From Mycolicibacterium fluoranthenivorans (GTDB lineage Bacteria; Actinomycetota; Actinomycetes; Mycobacteriales; Mycobacteriaceae), in contig NZ_JAANOW010000001.1 in assembly GCF_011758805.1 (NCBI RefSeq), positions 1,798,001 through 1,862,000 on the forward strand: a stretch of DNA of 64,000 nucleotides, read 5' to 3'. Of the stretch, positions 862-62,191 are shown in pieces. Each line of letters begins with the position of its first letter. The stretch's first letter is position 1. Under the pieces are notes generated by a model. The model was given only the letters and a program-made list of their open reading frames with translations. It made no database searches and was not told the DNA's origin. Made by a program: the position numbers and the translations under genes.

Positions 862-926
862 CACCCGCCCGGTCAGATACCCACCCGGTCGCTTCGCTCC
901 CACCCGCCCGGTCTGACACCCACCGG
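862..926. repeat. Convergent junction with a GTCGCTTCGCTCC repeat copy
   Basis: This short junction between the DUF2071 gene and chrA contains GTCGCTTCGCTCC at 888-900, a reverse-strand copy of the interspersed element GGAGCGAAGCGAC. It also holds two near-identical direct repeats, ACCCGCCCGGTC, flanking that copy. No clear stem-loop terminator is visible. Confidence 0.6.
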
Positions 927-2078
927 TCAGCCGACCGGCCACCCGATCAGGTACGCGCCGACGCCGAGCAGGGCCGCGCCGACCAGTGTGCTGACCACCC
1001 CGCGGCGGGCGATCAGCAGGGCCACCGCGGCCGCCGCCAGAACGCCGAACTGCCAAGCATGTTCGGCGCCGAGTGCCAGCGGTACCGCGGACCCGGTGAT
1101 CGCCCCGATCACCGCGGGCCCGGCACCGGCCAGGAACGCCTGCACATACCGGTTCGCGCGCAGTGCGTCGAAATGCCGACCGCCCGCGATGACCATCACG
1201 AACGACGGTCCGAAGGCGAACAGCGCGGCCAGGAGTGCGCCGCCCAGCCCCGCCGCGGCGTAGCCGACCACCGCGACGGTGTGCAGCACCGGCCCCGGGG
1301 TGAGCTGGCCCAGCGCCACGGCATTGAGGAACTCGGCATCGGTCATCCAGCGGTGCTGGTGCACGGCGTCGTCCTGCATCAGCGGGATGATGACGAACCC
1401 GCCGCCGTAGGACAGCGCACCGACCTTGAACGCCGTCCACAGCAGGGCCGGGATCCCGGCCAGTGCCGGGGCGGCGGCCAGCAGTACCGGCCAGGCATGT
1501 GCGGCGGCGCGCGACGGTCTGACCCGGGCTGTGATCTCCAGCAGGCCGGCCGCGATCAACACCAGTACCAGCCACGGACCGGTCAATGCGGCGGCGAGCG
1601 CCCCGGCGGCGAAGTAGCCGATCCAGCGGGCCCGGTTCCAGCGGCTCACGCCTGCGCGCTGCCAGCTCGACGGGATCAATCCGAAGGCCGCATGTACCGC
1701 GACCGCCGCCACCGCGGCACCCGCGCCGGCGGCGGCGCCGCGTGCCCAGCCGGGTGCGCCGCCGGACAGAAAGAACGCCGCGAGCGCGAGGATCACGAAC
1801 AACCCGGGCAGGATGAACGCCAGACCGCCGACGATCGCCCCGCTGAACCCACGTAGCCGCCAGGCGGTGTAGATCGCCAGCTGTGTCGACGCGGGACCCG
1901 GCAGCAGGTTCATCGCGGCGATCGCGTCCTCGAACTCGTCTGCGTCCAGCCACCGGCGCCGCTGCACGCAGAGCTCCCTGAGCAGGGCGATATGGGCCGG
2001 TGGCCCACCGAAGCCCAGGCAACCGATTCGGCCCCACTGGCCGGCGATGGTCATCAGCGGCACCCGGGACTCGCCCAC
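927..2078 (-). CDS. chrA: Chromate transporter, two-domain CHR family
   Basis: A 383-residue polytopic membrane protein of the long CHR type, made of two homologous halves. The N-half has GRIGCLGFGGPPAHIALLRE and LLPGPASTQLAIY; the C-half repeats the pattern with FKVGALSYGGGFVIIPLMQ and GQLTPGPVLHTVAVVGY. Such proteins export chromate across the cytoplasmic membrane and can confer resistance; some members may carry other anions. The GTG start at 2078 has GAAGGG upstream. It is the last gene of a leftward run ybaK - SDR - GNAT - chrA. Function is assigned by family only. Confidence 0.88.
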   Translation of the reverse strand: MGESRVPLMTIAGQWGRIGCLGFGGPPAHIALLRELCVQRRRWLDADEFEDAIAAMNLLPGPASTQLAIYTAWRLRGFSGAIVGGLAFILPGLFVILALAAFFLSGGAPGWARGAAAGAGAAVAAVAVHAAFGLIPSSWQRAGVSRWNRARWIGYFAAGALAAALTGPWLVLVLIAAGLLEITARVRPSRAAAHAWPVLLAAAPALAGIPALLWTAFKVGALSYGGGFVIIPLMQDDAVHQHRWMTDAEFLNAVALGQLTPGPVLHTVAVVGYAAAGLGGALLAALFAFGPSFVMVIAGGRHFDALRANRYVQAFLAGAGPAVIGAITGSAVPLALGAEHAWQFGVLAAAAVALLIARRGVVSTLVGAALLGVGAYLIGWPVG

Positions 2079-2095
2079 GTGTCGTTCCCTTCAGG

Positions 2096-2422
2096 TCATC
2101 GAGCGCGGACCAGTTCCACCGCCGACTCGGTCACCGGATCCACCGATGCCGCGAAGGCTTCGTCTTCGGCGTGCTTGTCCAGGAAGCTTTTCACGAACGG
2201 GCACAGCGGCACGACCCGCAGTCCCGATTCGACGGTGGCGGTCAGGGCAGCGCGAATCAGCGTGCTGGCCAGACCTTTACCGCCGAATTCGGCGCCGATC
2301 TCGGTGTGGAAGAAGATCCGCTGATTCTCGTGGTCGAGGTACTCGGCGAAGCCGGCGAGGTCACTGCCGTAGTACACCTCGAACCGGGACAGTGGCGGGG
2401 CGTTGACGACCGTGGGTTGCAT
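2096..2422 (-). CDS. GNAT-like N-acetyltransferase, YidJ/COG2388 type
   Basis: A 108-residue protein with the compact one-domain GNAT fold of the COG2388 group. It has a small beta-sheet N-terminus (RFEVYYGSDLAGFAEYL), the acetyl-CoA-binding loop EFGGKGLASTLIRAAL at about residues 46-61, and the PLCPFVKSFLDKH motif near the C-terminus that is diagnostic for this family. The substrate is unknown. The ATG start lies 3 bases after the broken SDR gene, and chrA follows 17 bases further on, so the three are probably cotranscribed. Confidence 0.85.
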   Translation of the reverse strand: MQPTVVNAPPLSRFEVYYGSDLAGFAEYLDHENQRIFFHTEIGAEFGGKGLASTLIRAALTATVESGLRVVPLCPFVKSFLDKHAEDEAFAASVDPVTESAVELVRAR

Positions 2423-2425
2423 GGA

Positions 2426-3283
2426 TCAGGGCCCGACGTATCCCGGCGGATTCGGGGTGTCCACCCACAGGTCGACGCCGAGATCGGACCCGGGGATGCA
2501 GTCATAGACCGACAGGTCGGTGACCCCGGAATCCAGCAGCACGTCCTCGCACAGCAGGCTCTGGCCGGTGTATTCGCGGGCCGGTTTGGTGAAGATCGCG
2601 TAGGCCGCATCGGAATACACCTGCGGTGTGCGCGACCGGGCCATCGCCTCGTCGCCGCCCAGCAGGTTCTGCACCGCCGCGGTGGCCACCAACGTGCGCG
2701 GCCACAGCGTGTTGGACGCGATTCCCGCCTACCGTAGTTCCTCGGCGATTCCCAACGCGCACAGCGTCATACCGAACTTCGCCATCATGTACGCGGTCGG
2801 CTTGAGCCACTTCGATTCCAGCCGGATGGGCGGCGAAAGGGTGAGGATGTGCGGATTGGCGCGGCCTTTCATATGCGGGATACAGGCCTGGGACACCGCG
2901 TAGGTGCCGCGGATCTGGATTCCGTTCATCAGGTCGAAGCGCTTGAGCGGCACCTCTTCGATGGAGCCGAGGTTGATCGCCGAGGCGTTGTTCACGCACA
3001 GGTCGATACCGCCGAACTGTGCGACCGCTTGAGCTACCGCGGAGGCCACCGAGTCCCCGTCGCGGACATCGCCCACGATGGGCAGGGCCTGCCCGCCGGC
3101 CTGCTCGATCTCCTTGGCGGCCGTGTAGACGGTGCCCTCGAGTTTGGGATGCGGTTCGGCGGTCTTGGCGAGTAGGGCGATGTTGGCACCGTCGGCGGCG
3201 GCCCGTTTGGCGATCGCCAGCCCGATACCGCGGCTGGCGCCGGAGATGAACATGGTCTTCCCGGAGAGTGGCGCTTGCGTCAT
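2426..3283 (-). pseudogene. SDR family oxidoreductase interrupted by an in-frame amber codon
   Basis: The reading frame is continuous from ATG 3283 to the stop at 2426 except for one TAG at 2731-2729, which is codon 185. The N-part has the classical SDR elements: GASRGIGLA cofactor loop, NNAS, LTLSPP, and YMMAKFG with the catalytic Tyr and Lys. After the TAG the same frame resumes with AGIASNTLWPRTLVATAAV and runs to the natural end, so no frameshift is involved. Without the TAG it would be a normal ~285-residue protein resembling M. tuberculosis Rv3224. A CAG-to-TAG transition is the simplest origin. A sequencing error or tolerated readthrough cannot be excluded. As written, the product would lack the C-terminal third. 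Confidence 0.85.
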
Positions 3284-3302
3284 GGCTGAAACCTTATGCC
3301 GC

Positions 3303-3794
3303 CTATCCGGCGCTGATGTCGGCGATGACGGCCTTGGTCGCGGTGATCAGATCCTGAGGCGACAGCGCGACATCCCAGCCGCGCTTGCCCGCACTGCACA
3401 GCACCCGGTCCCAGCCGAGTGCGGAGGCATCGACGACGGTCGGCAGTGTCCGGCGCTGGCCCAGGGGAGAGATACCGCCCAGCACGTAGCCGGTGGAGCG
3501 TTCCGCCGCGGTTCGGTCCGCCATCGTGACCTTGGCGAGGCCGAGTGCGGCGGCCGCGGCCTTCAGCGACAGCTTCGAAGGCACGGGTAGCACCGCGACC
3601 GCCAGGTCACGACCCGACGCGACCACCAGAGTCTTGAAGATCTGCCCTGGTTGCAGACCATGCGCGGAGGCCAGTTGTGCGACAGCCTCCGCGCCGAACG
3701 ACTCGGCTCGTGGGTCGTGGTCGTAGCGCAGGATCTCGTGCGGGAGGCCGGCGGTGATCAGGGCCGCGATCGCGGGAGTCGCTGCGTGTGCCAC
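3303..3794 (-). CDS. ybaK: Cys-tRNA(Pro) deacylase-like protein, YbaK/EbsC family
   Basis: A 163-residue YbaK-type protein that hydrolyses mischarged Cys-tRNA(Pro), or related aminoacyl-tRNAs, in the cytoplasm. It shows the family hallmarks: IFKTLVV with the conserved Lys, AVLPVPSKLSLKAAAAALG, and GYVLGGISPLGQ...LPTVVD followed by GKRGWDVALSP. GTG 3794 is the start, and the length fits the family. It heads a leftward run with the SDR gene 19 bases downstream. The divergent gene is sigH, with 222 bases between them. M. tuberculosis carries ybaK remnants at the equivalent place (from memory). Confidence 0.9.
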   Translation of the reverse strand: MAHAATPAIAALITAGLPHEILRYDHDPRAESFGAEAVAQLASAHGLQPGQIFKTLVVASGRDLAVAVLPVPSKLSLKAAAAALGLAKVTMADRTAAERSTGYVLGGISPLGQRRTLPTVVDASALGWDRVLCSAGKRGWDVALSPQDLITATKAVIADISAG

Positions 3795-4016
3795 GGCGTC
3801 AGCCTAGGACCGAGTCCCAGCGCTGGGAATGACGGAGCCGGGTACCGGTGTTACTGCAGGTGCGACGGGGCGCAACGGCCACCGGCAGGAATTGTCGGCG
3901 GCAACCTTTAGGATCGTGGAAGGAGTTTTTCAGTGTCAACGGCATGCCTGGAACGCCCGGTGTACCTGCTGGAGCCGTTCGGTCGTGCCGCGACGGAAGG
4001 GATGGGTCCTGTCACG

Positions 4017-4649
4017 ATGACCGATATAGACGAGGCGCCCGCCCCGACCGAAGAGACCGACGCCGAACTCACCGCCCGTTTCGAACGCGACGCGATCCCG
4101 CTGCTGGATCAGCTCTACGGTGGCGCGTTGCGGATGACGCGCAACCCCGCCGACGCCGAGGACCTGGTGCAGGAAACCATGGTCAAGGCCTACGCAGGGT
4201 TCCGGTCGTTCCGCGAGGGCACGAACTTGAAGGCGTGGCTCTACCGCATCCTGACCAACACCTACATCAACAACTACCGCAAGAAGCAGCGTCAGCCGGC
4301 GGAGTATCCGACCGACGAGATCACCGATTGGCAGCTGGCGGCGAACGCCGAGCACAGTTCCACGGGCTTGCGGTCGGCGGAGGTGGAAGCGCTGGAGGCC
4401 CTGCCGGACAGCGAGATCAAGGATGCCCTGCAAGCATTACCGGAGGAATTCCGCATGGCGGTCTACTACGCCGATGTCGAGGGATTCCCGTACAAGGAGA
4501 TCGCGGAAATCATGGATACCCCGATCGGGACGGTGATGTCTCGACTGCACCGAGGCCGTAAACAGCTGCGCGACCTGCTGGCCGATGTGGCCCGCGAACG
4601 CGGATTCCTGCGTGGCGAGCGACTGGCCACCGAGGAGGTTTCGTCATGA
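4017..4649 (+). CDS. sigH: ECF sigma factor SigH (oxidative and heat stress)
   Basis: A 210-residue group 4 sigma factor that directs RNA polymerase to disulfide- and heat-stress genes. Region 2 is seen at [20 protein letters not shown]...TLKAWLY-type sequence ([20 protein letters not shown]), and region 4 at [21 protein letters not shown] with [18 protein letters not shown] 4017 (MTDIDEAP) was chosen because it matches the SigH N-terminus. An in-frame upstream extension to 3933 is possible but looks non-conserved. The stop overlaps the rshA start (ATGA), giving translational coupling to its anti-sigma factor. The 222-base upstream region was checked for a SigH-type autoregulatory promoter without a convincing hit. 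Confidence 0.95.
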
Positions 4650-4954
4650 GCGAGTACCCGCGGTCCGAGGAGCACACGTTCGTACCCCCGGTGGGTCCGG
4701 TCGATCCCGACCATCCCGAGTGTGCGGCGGTGATCGCCGAGGTGTGGACACTGCTCGACGGTGAATGCACCGCCGAGACGCGGGACAAGCTCCGTCATCA
4801 CCTGGACGAGTGCCCGACCTGCCTGCGCCACTACGGCGTGGAGGAGCGGGTGAAGAAGCTGCTGTCCACCAAGTGCGGTGGCGAAAAGGCCCCTGACGGT
4901 CTCCGTGCGCGCCTGCGGTTGGAGATCAGCCGTACCACCATCATCCGGGGCTGA
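4646..4954 (+). CDS. rshA: Anti-sigma factor RshA, ZAS family
   Basis: A 102-residue redox-sensitive anti-sigma factor that holds SigH inactive until oxidation or heat. The zinc-associated motif H-x3-C-x2-C is visible as H52-LDE-C56-PT-C59, followed by [11 protein letters not shown]. In the family these residues bind Zn or Fe-S and sense disulfide stress. The ATG overlaps the sigH stop by 4 bases, so the two are made together. A strong rho-independent stem-loop follows 15 bases after the stop. Confidence 0.94.
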
Positions 4955-4969
4955 ATTCGCCCCACAGAC

Positions 4970-5004
4970 GAAACCGCCCGGACTCAGCGAGTCCGGGCGG
5001 TTTC
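4970..5004. terminator. Bidirectional stem-loop between rshA and bL37
   Basis: A perfect 15-bp inverted repeat: the left arm GAAACCGCCCGGACT at 4970-4984 pairs with 4990-5004 across a 5-base loop. The arms end in TTTC on either strand, so it can terminate both the rightward sigH-rshA transcript and the leftward bL37 transcript. Confidence 0.88.
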
Positions 5005-5018
5005 GTTATGCGTGTGGG

Positions 5019-5453: not shown

Positions 5454-5465
5454 CACTGCCGGCCC

Positions 5466-6974: not shown

Positions 6975-6991
6975 CACAGATCATTGCTCAA

Positions 6992-7033: not shown

Positions 7034-7046
7034 CGCGAGCGAAGCG

Positions 7047-7301
7047 TCAGACGCCGCTGCGGGCCTTGGTGCGAGCGTTGCGACGCTTGAGCGCGCGACG
7101 CTCGTCCTCGCTCATCCCGCCCCACACGCCGGCGTCCTGGCCCGACTCAAGTGCCCAGCTCAGGCACTCGGTGGTTACCGGACACCGGTTGCAGACGAGC
7201 TTCGCGTCGGCGATCTGAGCGATGGCCGGCCCACTGTTTCCCACGGGGAAGAACAGTTCCGGATCCTCGTCGCGACAGACCGCCTTGTGGCGCCAATCCA
7301 T
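7047..7301 (-). CDS. whiB1: Iron-sulfur transcription factor WhiB1
   Basis: An 84-residue Wbl protein. The [4Fe-4S] ligands C9, C37, C40 and C46 are all present, followed by the GVWGG turn and a basic C-terminus (RRALKRRNARTKARSGV) that contacts DNA. WhiB1 is essential in M. tuberculosis, reacts with nitric oxide and binds the primary sigma factor. It is leftward and monocistronic, with a 251-base upstream region that contains a CRP-like operator. The interspersed repeat lies directly 3' of the stop codon. Confidence 0.97.
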   Translation of the reverse strand: MDWRHKAVCRDEDPELFFPVGNSGPAIAQIADAKLVCNRCPVTTECLSWALESGQDAGVWGGMSEDERRALKRRNARTKARSGV

Positions 7302-14860: not shown

Positions 14861-17170
14861 TCAGGTGCCGGCGATCTCCAGCACGCCGCGCGCGAGGAGG
14901 TCGTCGATCTGCGGATCGGGTAGTCCCAACAGCTCGCGGGCGATCTCCCGGGTCTGTTCCCCCAGCAGCGGCGCCTGCCGCAGTGGCGGATCGGCGATCC
15001 GCTCGGAGTGGATCTGCACGTTCTCCAACACGAATGGCTCGGCCCCATGCGGGTGCAACTCCTCCCGGAAATCGCGGCGCGCGACGTAGTACTCCCAGTC
15101 CGGTACGTCAGCCGCGTGGAAAACCGCACCCGCGGGGACGCCCGCGGCCTGCAGCAGCTCCATGGCCTCGGCCGGAGTCCGCCGAGCCGTCCATTCGCGC
15201 AGGTCCTCGGTGCCGATCACGGTGCGCAGTGCCTCGCGGTCGGCGGCGTCGCGGACGGTCACCGCGACCCAGGCATCCGCACCGGACGCGGGGAACAGTC
15301 CCCACGGCGCGTCGGGTTCGGCACTGTCGGTGCGGGTGTGTCCACGGCGGGCCAGTACCTCGCCGGCGATCTCGGCGGCCAGATGGCTGAGCATCACCTC
15401 CGACTGCGCCACGCTGACCGCACCGCCGGTGCCGGTGCGTTCCCTGCGCAGCAGCAGGGTCAGCGCGCTCAGCGCCCCGATCCGGGCGGCGACGTGGTCG
15501 GGGTAGACGGTCACGGTGTCGCAGAATGTCTCCGGTTCACCCGGGTACACCCAGAGGTCGGTGAAGCCTGCCGCTGCCCGCACCAGCGGGCCGTAGCCCA
15601 TCCGCGTGGCCCACGGCCCGGTGGGCCCGAACGCCGAACTGTCCACCACCACGATGCCGGGATTGATCGCGCTCAAGGTGGCGTGGTCCATCCCGAGGCT
15701 CGCGGCCACCCCGGGTTTGAAATTGGTCAGCACCACATCGGAGATCTCGACGAGGCGGTGCGCCAATGCACGCCCCTCGGCGCCGCGCAGATCGAGGCCG
15801 ATCGACCGTTTGTTGCGGTGTCCGGCCGCATAGGTGTGGCTCACGGTGGTCAGGTTGCCGCGCAGCCCATCCGGGAACGCGGAGTTCTCGATCTTCACCA
15901 CGTCGGCGCCCAGATCGCCGAACAGCCGGCCGGTATCGCTGCCCACCACGATCACGCCGAGATCGAGTACCCGCACCCCCTCCAGCGGCAGGCCCTCGTG
16001 ACGACGGGGCCGGTCGGCCAGGATCGGCGCGCTGCGGGGTGCGCCGGCGGCGGTATCGGGGGCGTTGAGTGCGCTGGCCCGGTGACCGTCGATCTCGGCC
16101 ACACCGACCGGGACCGGTACGCGGAGCCCGGCCTCGAGTTCCACCTCGCGGAAGAAACCACGCTGTTCGACCTGCTCGGTACGCAGCGCCTCGGGCAGCG
16201 TGAGCACCGCGGCGGTGGGCACGCCGTGGCGCTGGCCCTCGACCTCCAACTCGGCGCGGGTCCGATCGGCGCAGAACCGGCCGATCGCCGCCAGCAGGGC
16301 CGGCGAGCTCAACCGCACGCGCAGGCCGTTGAACGACGGGTCGGCGAATTCGTCGGGCCGGCCCATCCATTCGAACATGCCCTGCCACTGCCGTTTGGCC
16401 AACAGGCAGATCCGGACGTGCCCGTCCTTGCAGGCGATGATGGGGTAACGCAGTTGTTCGGCATCCCAATTGCGGCGCTGCGCGTTCAGGGCGACACCGG
16501 CCGACGCCGTCCCCGCCGTGCCGAACGGCGGGTCGAGGGTCTGCATCGCGCCTTCGAGCACCGAGAAGTCGATGAGATCCCCTGCGCCGGTGCGTAATCG
16601 GTCCAGGAACACGCTGATCGTCATGACGGCGGCCTGTGCGGCGGCGACGTGATAGGGCAGCTGGTGCGCCGGCGGGACCAGGGGCTCGCGTCCCGGGATA
16701 CCCGAGCGGGACAGCTCGCTGCTCAGGGCGTGCAACACCGGGGTGGTGGCCTGCCAGCCGCTGAATCGGGTGTCCCGGCCGAAATCGCTGAGGGACAGGA
16801 TCACCAGGCCCGGGTGCCGGGTGCGGATCGTGGTGACGGACAGCGCCTGCTCGGCCGCGGAACCTGGGGCGGTGTTCTCGATGAGGATGTCCGCGTCGCC
16901 GAGCAGCCGGCTCCAGTCTGCGGCGTCGACCTCCAGCGGAGTCATTCCGTGCCGATTGATCGCCGTCGTCAACGGAACCGAATCGATATGCGGACCAACA
17001 GGTCTGTCCTCGGTGACGCCCGGCAGCAGTACCGGGGTGACCTCTGCGCCGAGGTCGGCGAGCAGCCGGCCGACGGCGGTCATCGGGCCGGAGGACAGGT
17101 CCAGGATCCGGACACCGGACAGCGGCGGGTCGTAAGTCACACTGGGGCGAGCGGAGCGACGGGGATTCAT
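14861..17170 (-). CDS. Double-domain family III (CaiB/BaiF) CoA transferase
   Basis: A 769-residue protein made of two CaiB/BaiF-type domains in tandem (about 15-375 and 390-769). Each half opens with VRxLDL...GRLxxDLGAxV. The C-half keeps the catalytic aspartate in VYPDHVAARIG (D558). The aligned N-half position is tyrosine, in QLPYHVAAAQ (Y173), so only one half looks catalytic. The enzyme would move CoA between carboxylic acids; the substrate is unknown but probably belongs with the two acyl-CoA dehydrogenases upstream. ATG 17170 lies 4 bases after the preceding stop. A copy of the interspersed element (GCGAGCGGAGCGAC, 17147-17160) is translated near the N-terminus. Confidence 0.85.
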   Translation of the reverse strand: MNPRRSARPSVTYDPPLSGVRILDLSSGPMTAVGRLLADLGAEVTPVLLPGVTEDRPVGPHIDSVPLTTAINRHGMTPLEVDAADWSRLLGDADILIENTAPGSAAEQALSVTTIRTRHPGLVILSLSDFGRDTRFSGWQATTPVLHALSSELSRSGIPGREPLVPPAHQLPYHVAAAQAAVMTISVFLDRLRTGAGDLIDFSVLEGAMQTLDPPFGTAGTASAGVALNAQRRNWDAEQLRYPIIACKDGHVRICLLAKRQWQGMFEWMGRPDEFADPSFNGLRVRLSSPALLAAIGRFCADRTRAELEVEGQRHGVPTAAVLTLPEALRTEQVEQRGFFREVELEAGLRVPVPVGVAEIDGHRASALNAPDTAAGAPRSAPILADRPRRHEGLPLEGVRVLDLGVIVVGSDTGRLFGDLGADVVKIENSAFPDGLRGNLTTVSHTYAAGHRNKRSIGLDLRGAEGRALAHRLVEISDVVLTNFKPGVAASLGMDHATLSAINPGIVVVDSSAFGPTGPWATRMGYGPLVRAAAGFTDLWVYPGEPETFCDTVTVYPDHVAARIGALSALTLLLRRERTGTGGAVSVAQSEVMLSHLAAEIAGEVLARRGHTRTDSAEPDAPWGLFPASGADAWVAVTVRDAADREALRTVIGTEDLREWTARRTPAEAMELLQAAGVPAGAVFHAADVPDWEYYVARRDFREELHPHGAEPFVLENVQIHSERIADPPLRQAPLLGEQTREIARELLGLPDPQIDDLLARGVLEIAGT
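17147..17160 (+). repeat. Interspersed element copy, N = G variant, inside a CDS start
   Basis: GCGAGCGGAGCGAC is the only copy with G at the variable position. On the coding strand it lies in the first codons of the CoA-transferase gene and contributes Arg-Arg-Ser-Ala-Arg-Pro, ahead of the conserved domain. Confidence 0.65.
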
Positions 17171-17174
17171 ACGC

Positions 17175-18410
17175 TCAGCTCCGCCGAGCCTCGCGGAACG
17201 GGATGTCGCGGTCCACTTCGGGCTCCTTGGGCAGTCCCAGCACCCGCTCACCGATGATGTTGCGCTGGATCTGGTCGGTGCCGCCGCCGATGGAGGTGAA
17301 GAAGGCGTTGAGCGCCAGGAAGTTGACGTCGTCGGCCTCGGCGTTGTCGGGTCCGGCCAAAAGCGCCTCGGCGCCGATGATCTCGGTCTTCAACGCGGCT
17401 TCGGAGTGCAGGATGCGCGACATCGCGAGTTTGCCCAGGGACATGATCGAGCTCGACGTACCCTGTGCGGTCGCGGCTTTGGCGCGGGCGTTGTTCAGCG
17501 CGTTCAGTTCGCGCAGCGCCAGGACCTCCGCCAGTTGCCCGCGGATCGCGGGATCGTCCAGGCGGTCGTGGTCGCGGGCCAGTTCGATCAGACTGTCGGC
17601 CCGGGACCGGTTGCGGGACGAGCGACCGGCGTCGCCCATGACCGACCGCTCATAGGCCAGCGCCGTCTGGAGCACCCGCCAGCCGTTGCCCTCGCCGCCG
17701 ATCAGGTTGGCGTCGGGCACCCGCGCATCGGTGATGAACACCTCGTTGAAATGGGATTCCCCGGTGATCTGGACCAGCGGCCGCACCTCGATCCCGGGCT
17801 GGCGCATCGGGATCACGAAGAAGCTGATGCCCTTGTGTTTGGGCACATCCCAGTCGGTGCGCGCGATCAGCAGTCCGTACTCCGCTGTCGCCGCGCCCGA
17901 GGTCCACACCTTCTGGCCGTTGATCACCCAGTCGTCGCCGTCGCGCACCGCCGTGGTGCGCACCGCGGCCAGGTCCGATCCGGCGCCGGGCTCGCTGTAG
18001 AGCAGGCAGGTGCGGGATCGTTCGGTGATGAAGCCGCGTAGCAGTTGGGCTTTCAGGTCATCGCTGCCGAACGTGAGCACGGTGTTGGCCGGGATGCTGT
18101 ATTTGTCCTGCCGGGCTCCCGGCGCTTTGACCGCACGGAACTCCTGCTCGATGATGACGGCCAACTCGTTGGGGTACGCGCGGCCGAACCACTGGGTGGG
18201 GTAGGTGGGCACGGCGTAGCCGGCGTCGAGCACCTTCTCCAGCCAGGCGATCTTCTCCGGTGAGCTGGACCACGGGTCAGTGGATTTGGGCAGGCCGGTC
18301 CAATGGTGGGCCAGCCATTCGCGGACCTCGGTCCGCAGGTCGTCCTGGGGCGAGCGCAGCGACGGGGAATGGTCCTGGGGCGAGCGAAGCGACGGGGAAT
18401 GGTCCGACAT
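17175..18410 (-). CDS. Acyl-CoA dehydrogenase with a repeat-derived N-terminus
   Basis: A 411-residue flavin-dependent acyl-CoA dehydrogenase. The FAD and substrate segments LLYSEPGAGSDLAAVRTTA, DWVINGQKVWTSGA and the C-terminal SIGGGTDQIQRNIIGERVLG are clear. ATG 18410 sits 1 base after the preceding stop and starts MSD followed by two copies of HSPSLRSPQD, the translation of two 30-bp units of the interspersed element, before the real domain begins at LRTEVREW. The neighbouring second dehydrogenase suggests a heteromeric enzyme, as seen for steroid and ring-acid degradation. Substrate unknown. Confidence 0.88.
   Translation of the reverse strand: MSDHSPSLRSPQDHSPSLRSPQDDLRTEVREWLAHHWTGLPKSTDPWSSSPEKIAWLEKVLDAGYAVPTYPTQWFGRAYPNELAVIIEQEFRAVKAPGARQDKYSIPANTVLTFGSDDLKAQLLRGFITERSRTCLLYSEPGAGSDLAAVRTTAVRDGDDWVINGQKVWTSGAATAEYGLLIARTDWDVPKHKGISFFVIPMRQPGIEVRPLVQITGESHFNEVFITDARVPDANLIGGEGNGWRVLQTALAYERSVMGDAGRSSRNRSRADSLIELARDHDRLDDPAIRGQLAEVLALRELNALNNARAKAATAQGTSSSIMSLGKLAMSRILHSEAALKTEIIGAEALLAGPDNAEADDVNFLALNAFFTSIGGGTDQIQRNIIGERVLGLPKEPEVDRDIPFREARRS
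18341..18400 (+). repeat. Two 30-bp tandem units of the interspersed element
   Basis: Two head-to-tail units of 30 bp (18341-18370 and 18371-18400) with cores GCGAGCGCAGCGAC and GCGAGCGAAGCGAC. They differ at only two positions, one of them the variable base of the core. Being a multiple of three, the unit stays in frame and is read as the decapeptide HSPSLRSPQD twice in the dehydrogenase. Confidence 0.85.
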
Positions 18411-34064: not shown

Positions 34065-34070
34065 CTCGGG

Positions 34071-34113
34071 GCGAGCGCAGCGACGGGGAAACTTGTCGGG
34101 CGAGCGAAGCGAT
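34071..34113 (+). repeat. Two-copy array of the interspersed element, gpm2-parA divergent promoter region
   Basis: Cores GCGAGCGCAGCGAC (34071-34084) and GCGAGCGAAGCGAT (34100-34113) are spaced 29 bases apart with related flanks (CGGGGAA / GGGGGAG). The array begins 7 bases upstream of the gpm2 start codon, inside what must be its 5' leader, and 72 bases upstream of parA. Confidence 0.8.
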
Positions 34114-34185
34114 GGGGGAGATCCACCGGGCCGATTCTGCCCCACGCCCGGCCGCAGTGGATGCTCGCGTGCTTGGATGGTCGGT

Positions 34186-39559: not shown

Positions 39560-39700
39560 AGCGTTTCCCAAGTGGTCGCGGTGCATACCTGGCCGATGCT
39601 AATGGGACTGCTGTGGCGGGTGAGGCCGACGCGGCGAGGCCGCCGGTCACGGTCAGGACTCGTTCTCGTAGCCGTCGTGTCGCGGCCCGTGTGACACCCC

Positions 39701-39709
39701 GCTTCGCTC
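39701..39709 (-). repeat. Partial copy of the interspersed element
   Basis: GCTTCGCTC, the reverse complement of GAGCGAAGC, lies within the divergent spacer between the MmpS-like gene and the TB9.4-like gene. The outer bases have diverged (CCCC instead of GTC), so this is a partial match and could be chance. Confidence 0.35.
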
Positions 39710-40867: not shown

Positions 40868-41932
40868 GTGACCTACGACCCGGGGCGTCGCGCAAGCGAC
40901 CGTGCGCCCCTCGGGGAGGAGCGAAGCGACCGGGGGAATGTTCCCGTGCTGCGCAGTGACCGGCGTGAGCCGCTGCGCGCCCAGCGCGACCCGCTGGCCG
41001 ACGACCAGGGCCGGCCCCGCTCCAACCGCGAGGAACGTCGGAATCTGCGCAAACAGACGTGGCTGGGCCGGTTCGTGTCCACCTACGGATGGCGGGCCTA
41101 CGCACTGCCGGTGCTGGCCGTACTCACCGTCGTGGTGCTGTACCAGACCGTCACCGGAACGAGCGCCCCCACGCCGGCCAATGCCGACGGCCCGATCCAG
41201 GGTCCGCCCACCATCAACTCTCCCGGCACCGCGATCGTCGGGGCGCCGCCCAAAGGCCTCACCCAGTTCGACGCGAACCTGCCGACAGGCATCCTGCCCG
41301 CCGGCGGCCCGTTCACCGAGTCGGGCGCCAAGACCTGGCATGTGGTTCCCGGCACCACCCCCAAGGTGGGTGCGGGGAACACCAAGACTTTCCGCTACAC
41401 CGTCGAGGTCGAGGACGGCGTGGACACCACATCATTCGGCGGCGACGACGGCTTCGCCCGCATGGTCAGCGAGACCCTGGCCAACCCGAAGAGTTGGACG
41501 CACAACCCCCAGTTCGCCTTCGAACGCGTCGACGGCGACGCCCAGCCGGATTTCCGGGTGTCGCTGACCTCACCGATGACGGTGCGGGAGGGCTGTGGGT
41601 ACGACATCCAGCTGGAGGCGTCCTGCTACAACCCGGCGTATTCGGAGAATCAGCCGCGGGTGTTCGTCAACGAGGCCCGTTGGGTGCGCGGTGCGGTGCC
41701 GTTCCAGGGCGATATCGGCTCCTACCGGCAGTACCTGATCAACCATGAGGTGGGTCACGCGATCGGTTACCCGAAGCACGAACCGTGCCCGGAGAACGGC
41801 GCGCTGGCCCCGGTGATGATGCAGCAGACGTTCTCCACCGACAACGACGATGCCGCCAAATTCGACCCCGAGTCGGTGAAGCCCAACGGACTCACCTGCA
41901 AGTTCAACTCCTGGCCGTATCCGATCGCCTGA
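40868..41932 (+). CDS. DUF3152 membrane-anchored protein with a metalloprotease-like HExxH motif
   Basis: A 354-residue protein from GTG 40868. Its first 50 residues are low complexity and include GEERSDRG, a translated copy of the interspersed element. A basic patch and one membrane anchor (AYALPVLAVLTVVVLYQTV, about 78-96) precede the extracytoplasmic DUF3152 domain. Near the C-terminus is H293-EVGHAIGYPK-H304, i.e. HExxH followed by Gly and a third His, one residue longer than the metzincin pattern HExxHxxGxxH. A zinc peptidase activity is plausible but unproven. Corresponds to Rv3207c. Confidence 0.82.
   Translation: MTYDPGRRASDRAPLGEERSDRGNVPVLRSDRREPLRAQRDPLADDQGRPRSNREERRNLRKQTWLGRFVSTYGWRAYALPVLAVLTVVVLYQTVTGTSAPTPANADGPIQGPPTINSPGTAIVGAPPKGLTQFDANLPTGILPAGGPFTESGAKTWHVVPGTTPKVGAGNTKTFRYTVEVEDGVDTTSFGGDDGFARMVSETLANPKSWTHNPQFAFERVDGDAQPDFRVSLTSPMTVREGCGYDIQLEASCYNPAYSENQPRVFVNEARWVRGAVPFQGDIGSYRQYLINHEVGHAIGYPKHEPCPENGALAPVMMQQTFSTDNDDAAKFDPESVKPNGLTCKFNSWPYPIA
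40918..40930 (+). repeat. Interspersed element copy inside the DUF3152 coding start
   Basis: GGAGCGAAGCGAC, preceded at 40890-40900 by a related GCGCAAGCGAC, is read in frame as GEERSDRG in the N-terminal non-conserved part of the protein. Confidence 0.7.
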
Positions 41933-55903: not shown

Positions 55904-58900
55904 TCAGCACCAGGTACAGCCCGGCCGAACTCGCCGATGCGCTGGGTCTTTTCGCACCGACCGACGAGCAGGCGGCCGTCATCGCCGCGCCCCCGGGGCC
56001 GGTGGTCGTGATCGCCGGCGCGGGTGCGGGCAAGACCGAGACGATGGCGGCGCGGGTGGTGTGGCTGGTCGCCAATGGTTACGCCGCGCCGGGCGAGGTG
56101 CTCGGACTGACCTTCACCCGCAAGGCCGCCGGTCAGCTGCTACGCCGGGTCCGCGCCAGGCTGGCCAGACTCGCCGGCTCCGGGCTGTGCCCGGAACTCC
56201 GGGCCGACGGGCCCCCGACCATCAGCACCTACCACGCGTTCGCCGGTTTCCTGCTGCGCGAACACGGCCTGTTGCTGCCGGTGGAACCCGACACCCGGCT
56301 GATCGGGGCGACCGAGCTGTGGCAGCTGGCCTTTCGGGTGGTGTGTGAGCATCCCAGGACACTGGACACCGACAAGTCCCCGGCCGCGGTCACCGGTCAG
56401 GTGCTGCGGCTGGCCGGTGCACTCGCCGAGCATCTGGTGGACACCGCTGCGCTGACCGACACCCATATCGAGTTGGAGCGGCTCATCCTGAATCTGCCCG
56501 CGGGCGCCAACCAGCGCGACCGCGGCCCCAGCCAGTGGCTGCTGAAGTTGTTGGACACCCAGACCGAACGCACCCAGTTGGTGCCGCTCGTCGACGAACT
56601 GCACCGCCGCATGCGCGCGGCGAAAGTGATGGACTTCGGCGCGCAGATGTCGGCGGCGGCCCGCTTGGCCGTGGCAGCGCCACAGGTGGGAGAGCAACTG
56701 CGGCAACGCTATCGGGTGGTGTTGCTCGACGAATACCAGGACACCGGTCACGCGCAGCGGATCGCCCTGTCGTCGTTGTTCGGCGGCGGCATCGACGACG
56801 GGCTGGCGCTCACAGCGGTGGGAGATCCCATTCAGTCCATCTACGGCTGGCGCGGTGCCTCAGCCACCAATCTGCCCCGGTTCGCCACCGATTTCCCGCT
56901 CTCGGACGGGACGCCGGCACCCACCCTGGAGCTGCGGACCAGCTGGCGAAATCCGCCGCAGGCACTGCATCTGGCCAACGCGGTGTCCGCGGAGGCCCGG
57001 CGCCGCTCGGTCAGCGTGCGCGAGCTGCTGCCGCGTCCCGATGCCGAGCGCGGCGATATCCGCTGCGCACTGCTCACCGATGTGATGTCCGAACGGAACT
57101 GGATGGCCGACGAGATCGCGCGGCGCTACCTGGCCGGCCCCACCCCGCCCAGCACGGCAGTGCTGGTGCGCCGCAATGCCGATGCCGCCCCGATGGCCGA
57201 CGCGCTGACCGCGCGCGGCGTTCCCGTCGAGGTCGTCGGTGTGGCCGGGTTGCTGGCCATCCCCGAGGTCGCCGACGTGGTCGCCATGCTGCGGTTGATC
57301 GCCGACCCGACGGCCGGGGCGGCCGCGATGCGGGTGCTGACCGGACCGCGCTGGCGTCTGGGCGCCCGCGATATCGCGGCCCTGTGGCAGCGGGCGGTGG
57401 AGTTGGACGGACCGGCCGCGGTGGCGAGCACCACGCAGATCGTCGCCGCCGCCGCGCCGGATGCCGACGCGGCCTGCCTCGCCGACGCGATCTGCGACCC
57501 GGGAGCGCAGGGCCGTTACTCGGCGCAGGGCTACGCGCGCATCGTCGCGCTCGGCCGCGAATTGACGGTCCTGCGTGCTCATCTGGCACATCCGCTGCCC
57601 GACCTGATCGCCGAGATCCGCCGGGTGCTCGGAGTCGACGCCGAGGCCAGGGCCGCCCGGCCGGTGGCTGCCGGCTGGGGCGGCACCGAACATCTCGACG
57701 CATTCGGTGATGTCGTCGCCGATTTCGCCGAGCGCGCCGAGGCCTCCCCGGACGGGCTACTGGCCTATCTGGAGGTGGCTGCCGATATCGAGAACGGTTT
57801 GGCGCCCGCCGAAGTCACCGTCGCGGCCGACCGGGTCCAGATTCTCACCGTGCACGCGGCCAAGGGTCTGGAATGGCAGGTGGTCGCCGTGCCTCATCTG
57901 AGTGCCCGGGTGTTCCCGTCCACCGCGATGGCGCGAACCTGGCTCACCGATGCCGGTGACCTACCGCCGCTGCTGCGCGGCGATCGGGCCACCGAGTCGC
58001 AGCACGGTGTGCCGGTACTGGACACCACCGACGTCTTCGATCGTAAAGCCTTGTCCGAGAGGATCGCTGCGCACAAAGACCATCTGGCGCAACGGCGGGT
58101 GGATGAGGAGCGCCGGCTGCTGTACGTGGCGCTCACCCGCTGTGAACACACGCTGCTGGTGTCCGGCCACCATTGGGGGCCCACCGAGTCGAAGCCGCGC
58201 GGGCCATCGGAATTCCTTCTGGAACTGCGGGGCATCATCGACGCTTCGGCGGCCTCCGGTGATCCCTGCGGAGTCATCGACCACTGGGCCCCGGATCCGG
58301 CCGAAGGGGACCCGAACCCGTTGCGTGACGCGGTCGTCGAGGCGGTATGGCCGGCTGAGCCGGCGCGGCGTGAGGTGCTCGACCGTGGCGCCGAACTCGT
58401 GCGCCGAGCCGATTCTTCGGCGGATGTCAGCGCCGCCGACGTGGAGAACTGGGCTGCCGACGTCGATGCGTTGTTGGCCGAACGGGCCAGGGCCGGTGAG
58501 CCGGAGGCGGTGACACTGCCCGCGCAACTGTCGGTCAGCATGCTGGTCGAACTGGGTAAGGACAGGGCGGCCGCCGCGCAACTGTTGCGGCGCAGGCTGC
58601 CGGTCCGGCCCGACCCGCATGCCTTGCTGGGCACCGCATTCCATGACTGGGTGCAGCGCTTCTTCCACGCCGAGCGGCTGTTCGACCTGGACGATCTGCC
58701 CGGTGCTGTCGATGGGGACACCGGGCGGGCGCACGCCGAGGAACTGGCCGGGTTGCAGGCCGCGTTCGCGTCATCGGCGTGGGCGGCGCGCACCCCCGTC
58801 GACGTCGAGGTGCCGTTCGACATGATGATCGGCACGACGGTGGTGCGCGGACGTGTCGATGCCGTGTTCGACGACGGGGACGGCGCGCAGATCGTGGTCG

Positions 58901-59124
58901 ACTGGAAGACCGGTGACCCGCCGGGCACGCCCGAAGCTCAGCGGGCGGCCGCGGTCCAGCTCGCGGTGTACCGGCTGGCGTGGGCGGGGATGTCCGGTCG
59001 TCCGCTGGACTCGGTGCGGGCGGCGTTCCACTACGTGCGTAGCGGGGTCACCGTGCGGCCCGACGAACTCCCCGGACCCGATGAACTGGCCGCGCTGCTG
59101 GCGCAGGAAGAGCTGACCCTGTGA
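55900..59124 (+). CDS. adnB: ATP-dependent helicase-nuclease subunit AdnB
   Basis: A 1074-residue second subunit from GTG 55900, overlapping the adnA stop. Walker A GAGAGKTETM, motif Ia GLTFTRKAAGQL, a full Walker B LLDEYQDTGHAQ, VGDPIQSIYGWRGA, the late motif [14 protein letters not shown] and LYVALTRCE. The C-terminal nuclease has IVVDWKTGDPPG with AVQLAVYRLAW. AdnB has an intact DEYQ where AdnA does not, in line with AdnB being the leading motor of the AdnAB dimer. Confidence 0.94.
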   Translation: MISTRYSPAELADALGLFAPTDEQAAVIAAPPGPVVVIAGAGAGKTETMAARVVWLVANGYAAPGEVLGLTFTRKAAGQLLRRVRARLARLAGSGLCPELRADGPPTISTYHAFAGFLLREHGLLLPVEPDTRLIGATELWQLAFRVVCEHPRTLDTDKSPAAVTGQVLRLAGALAEHLVDTAALTDTHIELERLILNLPAGANQRDRGPSQWLLKLLDTQTERTQLVPLVDELHRRMRAAKVMDFGAQMSAAARLAVAAPQVGEQLRQRYRVVLLDEYQDTGHAQRIALSSLFGGGIDDGLALTAVGDPIQSIYGWRGASATNLPRFATDFPLSDGTPAPTLELRTSWRNPPQALHLANAVSAEARRRSVSVRELLPRPDAERGDIRCALLTDVMSERNWMADEIARRYLAGPTPPSTAVLVRRNADAAPMADALTARGVPVEVVGVAGLLAIPEVADVVAMLRLIADPTAGAAAMRVLTGPRWRLGARDIAALWQRAVELDGPAAVASTTQIVAAAAPDADAACLADAICDPGAQGRYSAQGYARIVALGRELTVLRAHLAHPLPDLIAEIRRVLGVDAEARAARPVAAGWGGTEHLDAFGDVVADFAERAEASPDGLLAYLEVAADIENGLAPAEVTVAADRVQILTVHAAKGLEWQVVAVPHLSARVFPSTAMARTWLTDAGDLPPLLRGDRATESQHGVPVLDTTDVFDRKALSERIAAHKDHLAQRRVDEERRLLYVALTRCEHTLLVSGHHWGPTESKPRGPSEFLLELRGIIDASAASGDPCGVIDHWAPDPAEGDPNPLRDAVVEAVWPAEPARREVLDRGAELVRRADSSADVSAADVENWAADVDALLAERARAGEPEAVTLPAQLSVSMLVELGKDRAAAAQLLRRRLPVRPDPHALLGTAFHDWVQRFFHAERLFDLDDLPGAVDGDTGRAHAEELAGLQAAFASSAWAARTPVDVEVPFDMMIGTTVVRGRVDAVFDDGDGAQIVVDWKTGDPPGTPEAQRAAAVQLAVYRLAWAGMSGRPLDSVRAAFHYVRSGVTVRPDELPGPDELAALLAQEELTL

Positions 59125-59127
59125 CGG

Positions 59128-59523
59128 TCACGAATGGCGGTAGATCTTCCACGCCTGCGTGATCATCGGGACCTGCAACGGCAGCCGGGCCACCGCGCCG
59201 ATGCGCATCGGCAGCGGCTTGTCCTTCCACAGCCGGACCATGTTCACGTTGGCCGGAAACACCCCGACGAACAACGCGATCGAGGCGAGCGCGCCGAGCT
59301 TACGGGTGCGCGGTGCGAGCAGAAGCGCGCCTGCCCCGGCCTCCGCAACACCGGAGGCATAGGTGTAAAACCGCGCGCTACCAGGAAGTTCCTCCGGGAC
59401 GATCGTGTCGAAGGGCTTGGGCGCGGCGAAGTGCAGGATGCCCATGCCCACCAGCCAGCCGCCCATGAAACGAGCACGGGACTGGTTGGATGACTGTCGA
59501 ACGGCCGAGGAAATGGAAGTCAT
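59128..59523 (-). CDS. DoxX-like small membrane protein
   Basis: A 131-residue protein with about three to four hydrophobic segments (FMGGWLVGMGILHFAAP, ASGVAEAGAGALLLAP, LGALASIALFVGVFPANVNMV) and the HF...P / GxxE pattern of the DoxX-like group. Function unclear; some family members act with thiol or redox systems. From memory it is absent between adnB and the K+ channel gene in M. tuberculosis. It is convergent with adnB (3 bases apart) and divergent from the channel gene. Confidence 0.7.
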   Translation of the reverse strand: MTSISSAVRQSSNQSRARFMGGWLVGMGILHFAAPKPFDTIVPEELPGSARFYTYASGVAEAGAGALLLAPRTRKLGALASIALFVGVFPANVNMVRLWKDKPLPMRIGAVARLPLQVPMITQAWKIYRHS

Positions 59524-59565
59524 GGTTACATTGTGGCGTGCCCAGCTCACGCCAATCGGTGAACC

Positions 59566-60651
59566 GTGGCCAAAGGTAGGTTGCGTCGGCGGCTGGAGGC
59601 GGTCGACCAGAACCTGACCTCCCGCCCGGACGCCGACCTCGTCGAAATCCTCAACATCCCGGAGAAGTTCGTCAGTCCGGGTCGCCGAATCTTCATGCGG
59701 GTCATCTGGGCGCTGTCCGCTCTGGTCGCGGCCGTGTTCATCGTCTACATCGACCGGCACGGCTACCGCGATGTCGCGGCCACCCCGGAGGAGAGCGACC
59801 CGCTGTCCCTGCTGGACTGCATCTACTACGCCACCGTGTCGCTGTCCACCACGGGCTACGGCGACATCACGCCCTATACCGAATCCGCGCGCCTGGTCAA
59901 CGTTCTGGTGATCACGCCGCTGCGCGTGGCGTTCCTGATCGTGCTCATCGGGACCACCGTCGAGACCTTGACCACCCAGTCGCGCCAGGCACTGAAGATC
60001 CAGCGATGGAGGAGATCCGTGCGCAACCACACCATCGTCGTCGGCTACGGAACGAAGGGCCGGACTGCGGTTTCCGCGATGATCGGCGATGACGTGGCGC
60101 CCGGGGACATCGTCGTGGTCGACGACGACCCGGCCGCGCTGGAGCGGGCCAGGAGCGCGGGGCTGGTCACCGTGCGCGGTAGCGCCACCGACTCGGAGGT
60201 GTTGCGGCTGGCAAGCGCCCAGCACGCCAAGTCGATCATCGTCGCCGCCAACCGGGATGACACCGCGGTGCTCGTCACGCTCACGGCACGCGAACTCGCC
60301 CCCAACGCGAAGATCATCGCCGCGGTGCGGGAGGCCGAGAACCAGCATCTGCTGCGCCAGTCCGGCGCCGACACGACCGTCGTCACCTCCGAGACCGCGG
60401 GTCGACTGCTGGGAATCGCCACGCAGACGCCGAGTGTGGTGGAGATGATGGAGGACCTGCTCACTCCCGATGCCGGGTTCGCGGTTGCCGAACGGCCCGT
60501 CGAGCCCAAGGAGGAGGGCGGTTCACCGCGCCATCTCACCGACATCGTGCTGGGTGTGGTGCGCGACGGGCAGCTGCTGCGTGTGGACGACGAACGTGTC
60601 GACGCCCTCGAGCCGACCGACCGCCTGCTCTACATCCGGTCGAAGGAGTAA
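59566..60651 (+). CDS. Two-helix potassium channel with RCK (TrkA-N/TrkA-C) domain
   Basis: A 361-residue channel. TM1 (VIWALSALVAAVFIVYI, about 46-62), pore helix and filter YYATVSLSTTGYGDITP, TM2 (VLVITPLRVAFLIVLIG), then an RCK domain with the Rossmann loop HTIVVGYGTKGRTAVSAM (about 158-175) and acidic strand VVDDDP. A TrkA-C-like end follows. It should form a tetrameric ligand-gated K+ channel; equivalent to Rv3200c. GTG 59566; nudC begins 3 bases after its stop. Confidence 0.92.
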   Translation: MAKGRLRRRLEAVDQNLTSRPDADLVEILNIPEKFVSPGRRIFMRVIWALSALVAAVFIVYIDRHGYRDVAATPEESDPLSLLDCIYYATVSLSTTGYGDITPYTESARLVNVLVITPLRVAFLIVLIGTTVETLTTQSRQALKIQRWRRSVRNHTIVVGYGTKGRTAVSAMIGDDVAPGDIVVVDDDPAALERARSAGLVTVRGSATDSEVLRLASAQHAKSIIVAANRDDTAVLVTLTARELAPNAKIIAAVREAENQHLLRQSGADTTVVTSETAGRLLGIATQTPSVVEMMEDLLTPDAGFAVAERPVEPKEEGGSPRHLTDIVLGVVRDGQLLRVDDERVDALEPTDRLLYIRSKE

Positions 60652-60654
60652 CCG

Positions 60655-61581
60655 ATGAGCGCGTTCACGCTGCGCAACGTCCCGCTGCTGTCGCGCATCG
60701 GCGCCGACCGTGACGACCAGGTCCGCACCGATATCGATGCCGCGATCGCCGGCTGGCCCGACGCCGCCGTATTGCATGTCGACCGGCGCAACCAGGTCTT
60801 GATCTCCGGCAGCAGTGTGGTGCTGAGCAAGACGACCGCCCTCGGTGACACCCCGCCGGACCACGCGGTGTTCCTGGGCACGCTGGCCGACGGACGGCAT
60901 GTCTGGGCGATCCGTGGCGCCCTGGAAGCCCCGGAGGACGACTCCGTCGAAACCGAGGTGCTTGATCTGCGCCGCGCCGGCCCGATCTTCGACGATGCCA
61001 GCGCACAGCTGGTGGCCACGGCCACGGCACTGCTGAACTGGCATGACGCCGCCCGGTTCAGCCCGGTGGACGGCTCACCGACCAAGACGATCAAGGCCGG
61101 ATGGGCCCGCATCAACCCGGTCAACGGGCATGAAGAGTTTCCTCGTATCGATCCGGCGATCATCTGCCTGGTGCACGACGGCCACGACCGGGCGGTGCTT
61201 GCCCGTCAGACCGTCTGGCCGGAACGGTTGTTCTCACTGCTGGCCGGCTTCGTGGAGGCGGGGGAGTCGTTCGAGTCATGCGTGGAGCGCGAGATCGCCG
61301 AGGAGATCGGGCTCGCTGTGCGCGATATCCACTACCTCGGCAGCCAGCCGTGGCCGTTCCCGCGCTCCCTGATGGTGGGTTTTCATGCCATCGGCGACCC
61401 CGACCAGCCGTTCTCGTTCAACGACGGCGAGATCGCCGAGGCTGAGTGGTTCACCCGGGCGCAGGTGCGCGAAGCACTGGAGCACGGCGACTGGAACAGC
61501 GACTCACCGTCGCGGCTGTTGCTGCCCGGATCCATCTCGATCGCCCGGGAGATCATCGAGTCGTGGGCCGCGGCCGGCTGA
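60655..61581 (+). CDS. nudC: NADH pyrophosphatase NudC, without zinc-ribbon cysteines
   Basis: A 308-residue Nudix hydrolase. The Nudix box is GFVEAGESFESCVEREIAEE plus IGL, and the NudC-specific SQPWPFPRS motif follows. In the canonical enzyme a four-Cys zinc ribbon precedes PRxDPAVI; here the matching stretch (NWHDAARFSPVDGSPTKTI and GWARINPVNGHEEFPR) has no cysteine at all. NudC hydrolyses NAD(H) and can remove NAD caps from RNA. In mycobacteria it is also connected with isoniazid adduct hydrolysis. Confidence 0.92.
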   Translation: MSAFTLRNVPLLSRIGADRDDQVRTDIDAAIAGWPDAAVLHVDRRNQVLISGSSVVLSKTTALGDTPPDHAVFLGTLADGRHVWAIRGALEAPEDDSVETEVLDLRRAGPIFDDASAQLVATATALLNWHDAARFSPVDGSPTKTIKAGWARINPVNGHEEFPRIDPAIICLVHDGHDRAVLARQTVWPERLFSLLAGFVEAGESFESCVEREIAEEIGLAVRDIHYLGSQPWPFPRSLMVGFHAIGDPDQPFSFNDGEIAEAEWFTRAQVREALEHGDWNSDSPSRLLLPGSISIAREIIESWAAAG

Positions 61582-61763
61582 CCCGCCCGACCGCGTACCC
61601 GCAGCTCGTACTCGCGCGCGATATCGCGGGCGCGGTCACACAGCGTCATCAGGTGCCACGCATCGCGCAGCCTGGACGGTTCGGATGACAGTGCGTCGAT
61701 CTCGGCGTTGACCGCGTCGAACTCGGCCCGAAGTGCATCGATCGTGTCGAGGTTGCCGTTCAT
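61383..61763 (-). CDS. Small unrecognised protein under a LexA box
   Basis: A frame of 126 codons from ATG 61763. The first 60 residues (MNGNLDTIDALRAEFDAVNA, then EIDALSSEPSRLRDAWHLM and DRARDIAREYELR) look like a real, charged, helical protein. The last 66 are antisense to the end of nudC, so the true gene may be shorter through an undetected frame change. No family recognised. The ATG follows a perfect SOS box with no room for a ribosome binding site, and TAGTGT at -13 to -8 could be the -10 of a leaderless transcript. DNA-damage induction is inferred. Confidence 0.5.
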   Translation of the reverse strand: MNGNLDTIDALRAEFDAVNAEIDALSSEPSRLRDAWHLMTLCDRARDIAREYELRVRGRAGQPAAAHDSMISRAIEMDPGSNSRDGESLFQSPCSSASRTCARVNHSASAISPSLNENGWSGSPMA

Positions 61764-61766
61764 GTA

Positions 61767-61782
61767 TCGAACACTAGTTCGA
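61767..61782. promoter_or_regulatory. Perfect LexA/SOS box
   Basis: TCGAACACTAGTTCGA fits the mycobacterial SOS box TCGAAC-N4-GTTCGA at all 12 defined positions. The symmetry extends to GTATCGAAC/GTTCGATAC (61764-61785). It ends 3 bases before the ATG of the small leftward gene and contains that gene's candidate -10 element, so LexA binding would block its transcription. Confidence 0.88.
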
Positions 61783-61801
61783 TACACCGACAAGCGCGCG
61801 A

Positions 61802-62044
61802 TCAGCCCAGCTTTGCCTTGACCTGCTTGATATTCGGGTTGGTCAGGGTCGACCCGTCGGCGAACTTGAGCGTCGGCACCACGTGGTTGCCGCCGTTGAC
61901 CGAGCCGACGAACTCCGCTGCGGCGGGATCGCCCTCGATATCGATCTCGGTCCAGGAGATGCCTTCGGCCTTGAGGGCGGTCTTCAGGCGAGAGCAATAG
62001 CCACACCATGAGGTGGTGTACATGGTCAACGCAGCGGTAGTCAT
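61802..62044 (-). CDS. mrx1: Mycoredoxin-1
   Basis: An 80-residue glutaredoxin-fold protein with the redox motif WCGYC (residues 13-17), the cis-Pro in VVPTLKF and the C-terminal GSTLTNPNIKQVKAKLG. Mycoredoxin-1 reduces mycothiol mixed disulfides, with C14 as the attacking residue in the homologue. It corresponds to Rv3198A, beside uvrD2. A 111-codon upstream extension would translate the tandem repeats of the uvrD2 spacer and was rejected. Confidence 0.93.
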   Translation of the reverse strand: MTTAALTMYTTSWCGYCSRLKTALKAEGISWTEIDIEGDPAAAEFVGSVNGGNHVVPTLKFADGSTLTNPNIKQVKAKLG

Positions 62045-62092
62045 AGTGCCTACAACGTAGCGGACCTCATGTGCATGCCCGGCAGCGAAGCG

Positions 62093-62191
62093 ACGTCGTG
62101 GGGCGAGCGAAGCGACGGGGAAGAGGCGTCGTGGGGCGAGCGAAGCGACGGGGGAGAGGCGTCGTGGGGCGAGCGAAGCGACGGGGAAGTC
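62093..62191 (+). repeat. Three 33-bp tandem units of the interspersed element
   Basis: Units at 62093-62125, 62126-62158 and 62159-62191 each contain GTCGTGGGGCGAGCGAAGCG followed by ACGGGGAAGAG or a close variant. A shorter extra core, GCAGCGAAGCGAC, lies just before the array (62082-62094). The array fills half of the 202-base divergent spacer between mrx1 and uvrD2. Confidence 0.92.

Follow-up and report, generated by a model that had tools for sequence, protein, structure and literature searches.

The stretch analysed here (the window) comprises 64,000 nucleotides of Mycolicibacterium fluoranthenivorans (assembly GCF_011758805.1, contig NZ_JAANOW010000001.1, forward-strand positions 1,798,001 to 1,862,000). 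At several of its gene junctions, among them that between a histidine-phosphatase-like gene and a ParA-like gene (the insertion at 34066..34123) and that between a glutaredoxin-like gene and a UvrD-like helicase gene (the array at 62093..62212), it carries copies of a short repeat whose conserved letters read 5'-GA-GC-GNA-GC-GA-3'. Comparison with related genomes gives good support for dispersed insertion of DNA bearing this core.

The repeat is far too frequent to be a product of base composition. In the window, 21 sites match GCGAGCGNAGCGAC at no more than two mismatches, compared with a mean of 9.4 and a maximum of 17 in 100 dinucleotide shuffles, and the exact 12-mer GAGCGNAGCGAC occurs nine times. 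The 6.41-Mb genome contains this 12-mer 234 times (146 + 88) and its reversed control 13 times, bearing out the genome-wide excess over background anticipated by the first-pass annotation, which had been made from the letters of the window. The reversed 10-mer AGCGANGCGA is identical to the core at N=A and hence unusable as a control, a difficulty that does not affect the longer reversed patterns. The window shuffles, the genome-wide reversed control and the family-wide reversed control given below together rule out chance.

For closer study 0.90 of the 6.41 Mb was sampled, the stretches beyond 2.26 Mb being biased to the forward strand. The sample holds 68 clusters with a total of 97 exact cores; 50 of these clusters are a single exact copy, and subtraction of the 10 clusters lacking clear flanks of either type defined below leaves 58 type A/B clusters. 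A tally of 96 copies with strong flanks and at most two mismatches, which places strongly decayed copies outside the count, found the middle base N to be A in 54, C in 25, G in 11 and T in 6, so that the tally conforms to GC-GNA-GC with any N. This is the most variable core position in both flank types, and each of the others is kept in at least 93 of the 96 copies. N is thus the only freely variable base of the core, as the first-pass annotation had held, but the six copies with T extend the variation beyond the A, C and G that it had allowed.

The 58 clusters fall into two flank types. Type A (32 clusters) has the form GGGGC-core-GGGGAA in a unit of ~30 bp, and type B (26 clusters) the form CGGCGGGCAG-core-CCGGGGA in a unit of ~36 bp. 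Neighbouring units are most commonly spaced 30 bp apart in type A and 35-36 bp in type B, which implies a locus-specific spacer of roughly 7 bases between elements, and the element proper would measure about 22 nucleotides (nt) for type A and about 29 nt for type B. Arrays are direct repeats with locus-specific spacers. No inverted ends of the kind that close a MITE were seen by eye in the flank tally, and no opposite-strand core pairs stood out in the site list, no search aimed at such pairs having been made. In G886 (C1:4374518-4374725), at least eight type A copies form a regular 27-bp array, and at ~1940668 and ~2898443 on our own contig C1 some array units apparently lack the hairpin core while retaining pieces of the flanks (by eye).

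Ranked by the uvrD region, the closest of 396 genomes of the genus are G525 (120 copies), G578 (151) and G668 (171), the first two being collinear with the window at an identity of ~85%. Comparison of our genome with 1.2 Mb of G525 tested 36 clusters, of which eight lacked an ortholog pair and one (1860105) had a rearranged neighbour, leaving 27 comparable loci including three with weak flanks. At 22 of these 27 loci our genome carries an extra 19-78 bp relative to G525, most clearly at window position 18346 and at 2515665, 2630700 and 2847014 of contig C1; inserts of a single copy start at 19 bp. The remaining five loci are common to both genomes, one of them decayed in G525. The short mobile element suggested by the first-pass annotation is therefore upheld in the sense of dispersed insertions, that is, as extra DNA relative to collinear relatives, and a difference in occupancy of orthologous junctions is seen at most loci but not at the five shared ones. 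G525 seems by eye to retain a decayed unit at 2318641, 2327692 and 2662971, and these may represent gains of units rather than new sites. Insertions of 14-250 bp in our genome relative to G525 number 46, with the core present in nine of them (eight loci), and no second recurrent insertion family was seen by eye among the remaining core-free insertions of this size. The sites in the window are collected in Table 1.

Table 1. Core-like sites in the window, with their state in related genomes or the basis of their assignment
Feature	Position	Strand	Relatives or basis
Type B-like copy with G-rich flanks, in the 65-bp spacer of two convergent genes	888..901	-	Orthologous spacer not alignable
Not a member; GGGG flanks absent	7035..7048	+	Non-core sequence aligned in two relatives; small gaps only, no family-sized insertion
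Insertion of 35 bp holding a single type A copy (core 17147-17160)	17140..17174	+	Absent from G525 and G578
63-bp insertion holding a pair of type A units with a period of 30 bp; cores 18350-18363 (N=C) and 18380-18393 (N=A)	18346..18408	+	Absent from G525 and G578
58-62 bp insertion (alignment-dependent) holding a pair of type A units at 29-bp spacing; cores 34071-34084 and 34100-34113	34066..34123	+	Absent from G525 and G578
Not a member; G flanks missing and match only partial	39700..39709	-	Aligns to non-core sequence versus two relatives; 11-base gap in one
Type B copy upstream of a DUF3152 gene, ~15 bp from its called start	40917..40930	+	Common to G525 and G578
Partial copy at left edge of array	62082..62094	+	-
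~120 bp with three type A units, 33-bp period (cores 62103, 62136 and 62169)	62093..62212	+	Absent from G578

Thirteen copies had been listed in the first-pass annotation, and 11 of them are members of the family (888, 17147, 18350, 18380, 34071, 34100, 40918, 62082, 62103, 62136 and 62169); those at 7035 and 39701 are not. The last base of the core at 34100-34113 is T. The copy at 40917 has N=A here and N=C in both G525 and G578, G578 having one extra 36-bp unit, and it is the older copy, being present in all three genomes. Upstream of window position 62235, the neighbour of the UvrD-like gene is glutaredoxin-like here and in G578 and is another gene in G525.

Copies are concentrated at gene ends but are by no means confined to them. 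With gene calls from a simple codon-usage caller written for this analysis, 21 of the 58 type A/B clusters are located inside a gene by more than 75 bp, far fewer than expected from a gene-interior share of 73.5% of all positions (p ~3e-9); the strand-unbiased part of the sample gives 13 of 42 clusters (p ~1e-8), and five other motifs of similar make-up, taken as a control, are gene-interior in 29 of 37 cases. Gene interiors are thus poor in copies, whereas the restriction to spacers and first codons that had been claimed for the copies holds for the real ones in the window and fails genome-wide.

Most gene-interior copies lie on the gene's own strand (17 of 21, or 11 of 13 without the strand-biased stretches), and 16 of these 17 same-strand copies are in frame 0 or 2. 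All nine gene-interior length differences relative to G525 are multiples of three (chance 5e-5), compared with seven of 13 elsewhere (Fisher p 0.046). Translation of 13 called genes with interior copies, which as called open frames are stop-free by construction, gave 11 same-strand insert peptides resembling GASEATG or GERSDG and two antisense peptides, PESLRS. The host genes include those for FtsK-like, RibF, AroE, DapF (with an antisense insert), chelatase-like and riboflavin synthase proteins, among others, and in the cases scanned the sequence to either side of the insert matches the protein's family. These matches and the multiples of three indicate that the inserts are tolerated as linkers, with selection for frame acting after insertion. 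The riboflavin synthase locus is common to both genomes, with 42 bp more in G525. A two-unit antisense array also lies at ~2114463 of our contig C1, inside a called gene of 22.5 kb.

The family is broadly but unevenly distributed. Counts of GAGCGNAGCGAC in 148 genomes of the genus are patchy and range from background to 234, high and low counts being intermixed, as judged by eye, along the ranking by similarity to our genome. The type A 19-mer GGGCGAGCGNAGCGACGGG is present in 129 of 401 genomes of Mycobacterium's family and in 17 of its 31 genera, no row giving any match to the reversed control. When genomes were drawn from the whole class, 13 of 25 within the family had the 19-mer versus one of 271 outside it, the reversed control occurring in two genomes. 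The patchy copy number and the insertion inside genes speak against a conserved binding site. A phage origin was also rejected: the type A pattern has 0 matches in viral contigs, and a loose type B pattern matches 10, none of them, by eye, with the downstream GGGG. Some distant members of the phylum have more matches to GAGCGNAGCGA than to its reversed control, namely G398 (42 vs 1), G306 (275 vs 97), G406 (134 vs 33) and G257 (150 vs 58), and these excesses possibly reflect independent relatives of the element.

The variation within the core matches a published property of DNA. Short hairpins with a GNA or GNNA loop, N being any base, on at least two G-C pairs are described as unusually stable and nuclease-resistant, that of GCGAAGC melting at 78 C (extracts of PMC4686876). 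The freedom of the loop base in this rule would explain why N alone is free to vary, even at the orthologous site at 40917. In extracts of the oligonucleotide literature, other folds rich in G.A pairs are described for AGCGA tracts accompanied by G runs. We consider it probable that the repeat is a non-autonomous mini insertion element of Mycobacterium's family, REP-like in its behaviour, with the GNA mini-hairpin in single-stranded DNA as its conserved property. The form that moves would be a single strand of DNA whose sequence 5'-GA-GC-GNA-GC-GA-3', as we infer, adopts a mini-hairpin of two G-C pairs and two sheared G.A pairs, with N extruded from the GNA loop. This fold would either be recognised by a host or mobile enzyme or protect the strand long enough for replication or repair to incorporate it into DNA. 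Arrays would grow afterwards by local tandem duplication, and the G runs on both sides may aid folding or array growth.

Several results weigh against a mini insertion element of this kind. The mobile unit lacks sharp ends, the extra lengths varying from 19 to 78 bp and being net differences over the anchored stretch, and the 96-copy tally is inflated, array units not being independent. Nearest-neighbour folding of eight consensus oligonucleotides gave z-scores of 0.3 to 1.5, no more stable than shuffles. Nearest-neighbour parameters are not known to give credit to sheared G.A pairs. The mini-hairpin as the conserved property, put forward in the first-pass annotation, accordingly has the variation pattern and the published DNA chemistry in its favour and the calculated fold, which is not unusually stable, against it. 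A constant target-site duplication, likewise a MITE trait, was not found for single type A copies in the flank comparison, which showed no flank similarity (p 0.42); in arrays, similarity is weak for type A (p 0.018) and absent for type B (p 0.21). Single type B copies show it clearly (0 of 500 shuffles), but there it may partly be the element's own flank. Nor was a mobilising enzyme recovered: our genome (G000) has 0 candidates for the Y1 transposase (PF01797), a model that a diverged HUH enzyme could escape, and the reverse transcriptase RVT_1 (PF00078), which spread as a retro-element would call for, was not found in G000. RVT_1 is found in seven of 18 high-copy genomes and, besides G000, is missing from 10 of the 17 others tested.

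The absence of Y1 candidates bears equally on one of the closest known parallels, a REP/REPIN-type element moved by a Y1 (RAYT) transposase recently lost from the lineage. REP/REPIN elements are likewise short hairpin units in many copies, mainly intergenic and clustered, and the hairpin core, the tandem arrays and the predominance of gene junctions in our genome fit them; Y1 domains are also found in 26 of 148 genomes of the genus. However, a Y1 match shows no significant link to copy number (p 0.32), occurring in 5 of the 18 genomes that have 60 or more copies and in 21 of 130 others, the core is a hairpin of two G-C pairs rather than a long palindrome, and 21 of 58 clusters lie inside genes, and we regard this origin as unlikely. 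The replicative unit of a REPIN is an inverted doublet, and the arrays seen here are direct. The copies within genes are closer to the Rickettsia palindromic elements (RPE), which likewise enter unrelated genes in frame, where translation would be expected, but RPE are ~150 bp long whereas our units are ~30 or 36 bp and encode a peptide that depends on the frame. Work on d(GCGNAGC) mini-hairpins and AGCGA-quadruplexes shares with our element the GC-GNA-GC core, the AGCGN/AGCGA tracts and the nearby G runs; it concerns in vitro oligonucleotides, and the extracts at hand do not mention a bacterial insertion family (these comparisons draw jointly on extracts of PMC10969869, PMC3116915 and PMC5442326). 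The element is REP-like and, in genes, RPE-like in behaviour, yet it fails tests that help to define each of them. Our literature searches found no description of the family. A repeat used for rep-PCR in M. intracellulare contains, in its primer 3, the 11-base core GAGCGAAGCGA; according to the extract of PMC10117815 this is a typing primer, with flanks other than ours, and it is perhaps a variant of the family in slow growers.

Alternatively, the copies may need no enzyme of their own, if hairpin oligonucleotides that resist nucleases and are left over from degraded DNA serve as filler when ends are joined or the lagging strand is synthesised. Such capture would suit the variable insert lengths, the lack of a general target-site duplication, the absence of both Y1 and RVT_1 domains from our genome and the nuclease resistance reported for the motif in the extracts cited above, but it does not readily explain two fixed flank types or a range limited to one family, and we consider it unlikely. 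KOPS and Chi are polar functional sites. A site of that kind, or a nucleoid-protein site, kept under selection and oriented to replication would account for a lean of the copies toward the direction of the fork. With dnaA at 0.168 Mb of contig C1 and the terminus assumed to lie opposite, 29 clusters run with the fork and 17 against it between dnaA and the last site listed on both strands, and the type A/B clusters are divided 10:4 in the 464 kb read on both strands (7:2 among the extra-copy loci there). Neither of the two cluster counts is significant (p 0.10 and 0.18), and no fork bias is seen in G034 (25:28), G608 (23:25, in the part listed on both strands) or G489 (46:36, for 100 of 164 sites). 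The link to replication offered as an option in the first-pass annotation is thus not established, and with background numbers in many genomes of the genus and only five of 27 loci in common with G525, a polar site under selection appears very unlikely. An ordinary minisatellite, arising by local tandem duplication without dispersal, would produce arrays with locus-specific spacers and is still a likely mode of array growth. As the sole cause it is ruled out by the single-copy clusters (50 of 68) and by copies at sites where the relatives have nothing, and as an account of the family we judge it extremely improbable.

If the repeat is indeed a mini insertion element with a GNA hairpin, it would stand out among bacterial insertion elements as extremely short, it would not qualify as a REP sequence by either enzyme or location, and it would be one that writes new peptide linkers into core enzymes. 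It would also tie a property of oligonucleotides known for decades to evolutionary success in nature. A further version, to which we assign a low probability, is a selfish oligonucleotide of ~20-30 nt without a transposase of its own, whose nuclease-resistant GNA hairpin is captured again and again by host replication and repair; if true, this would be one of the smallest units of DNA-level selection. With recent insertions, empty sites in relatives and patchy expansions in several genera, the family would provide a tractable system for finding the agent responsible.

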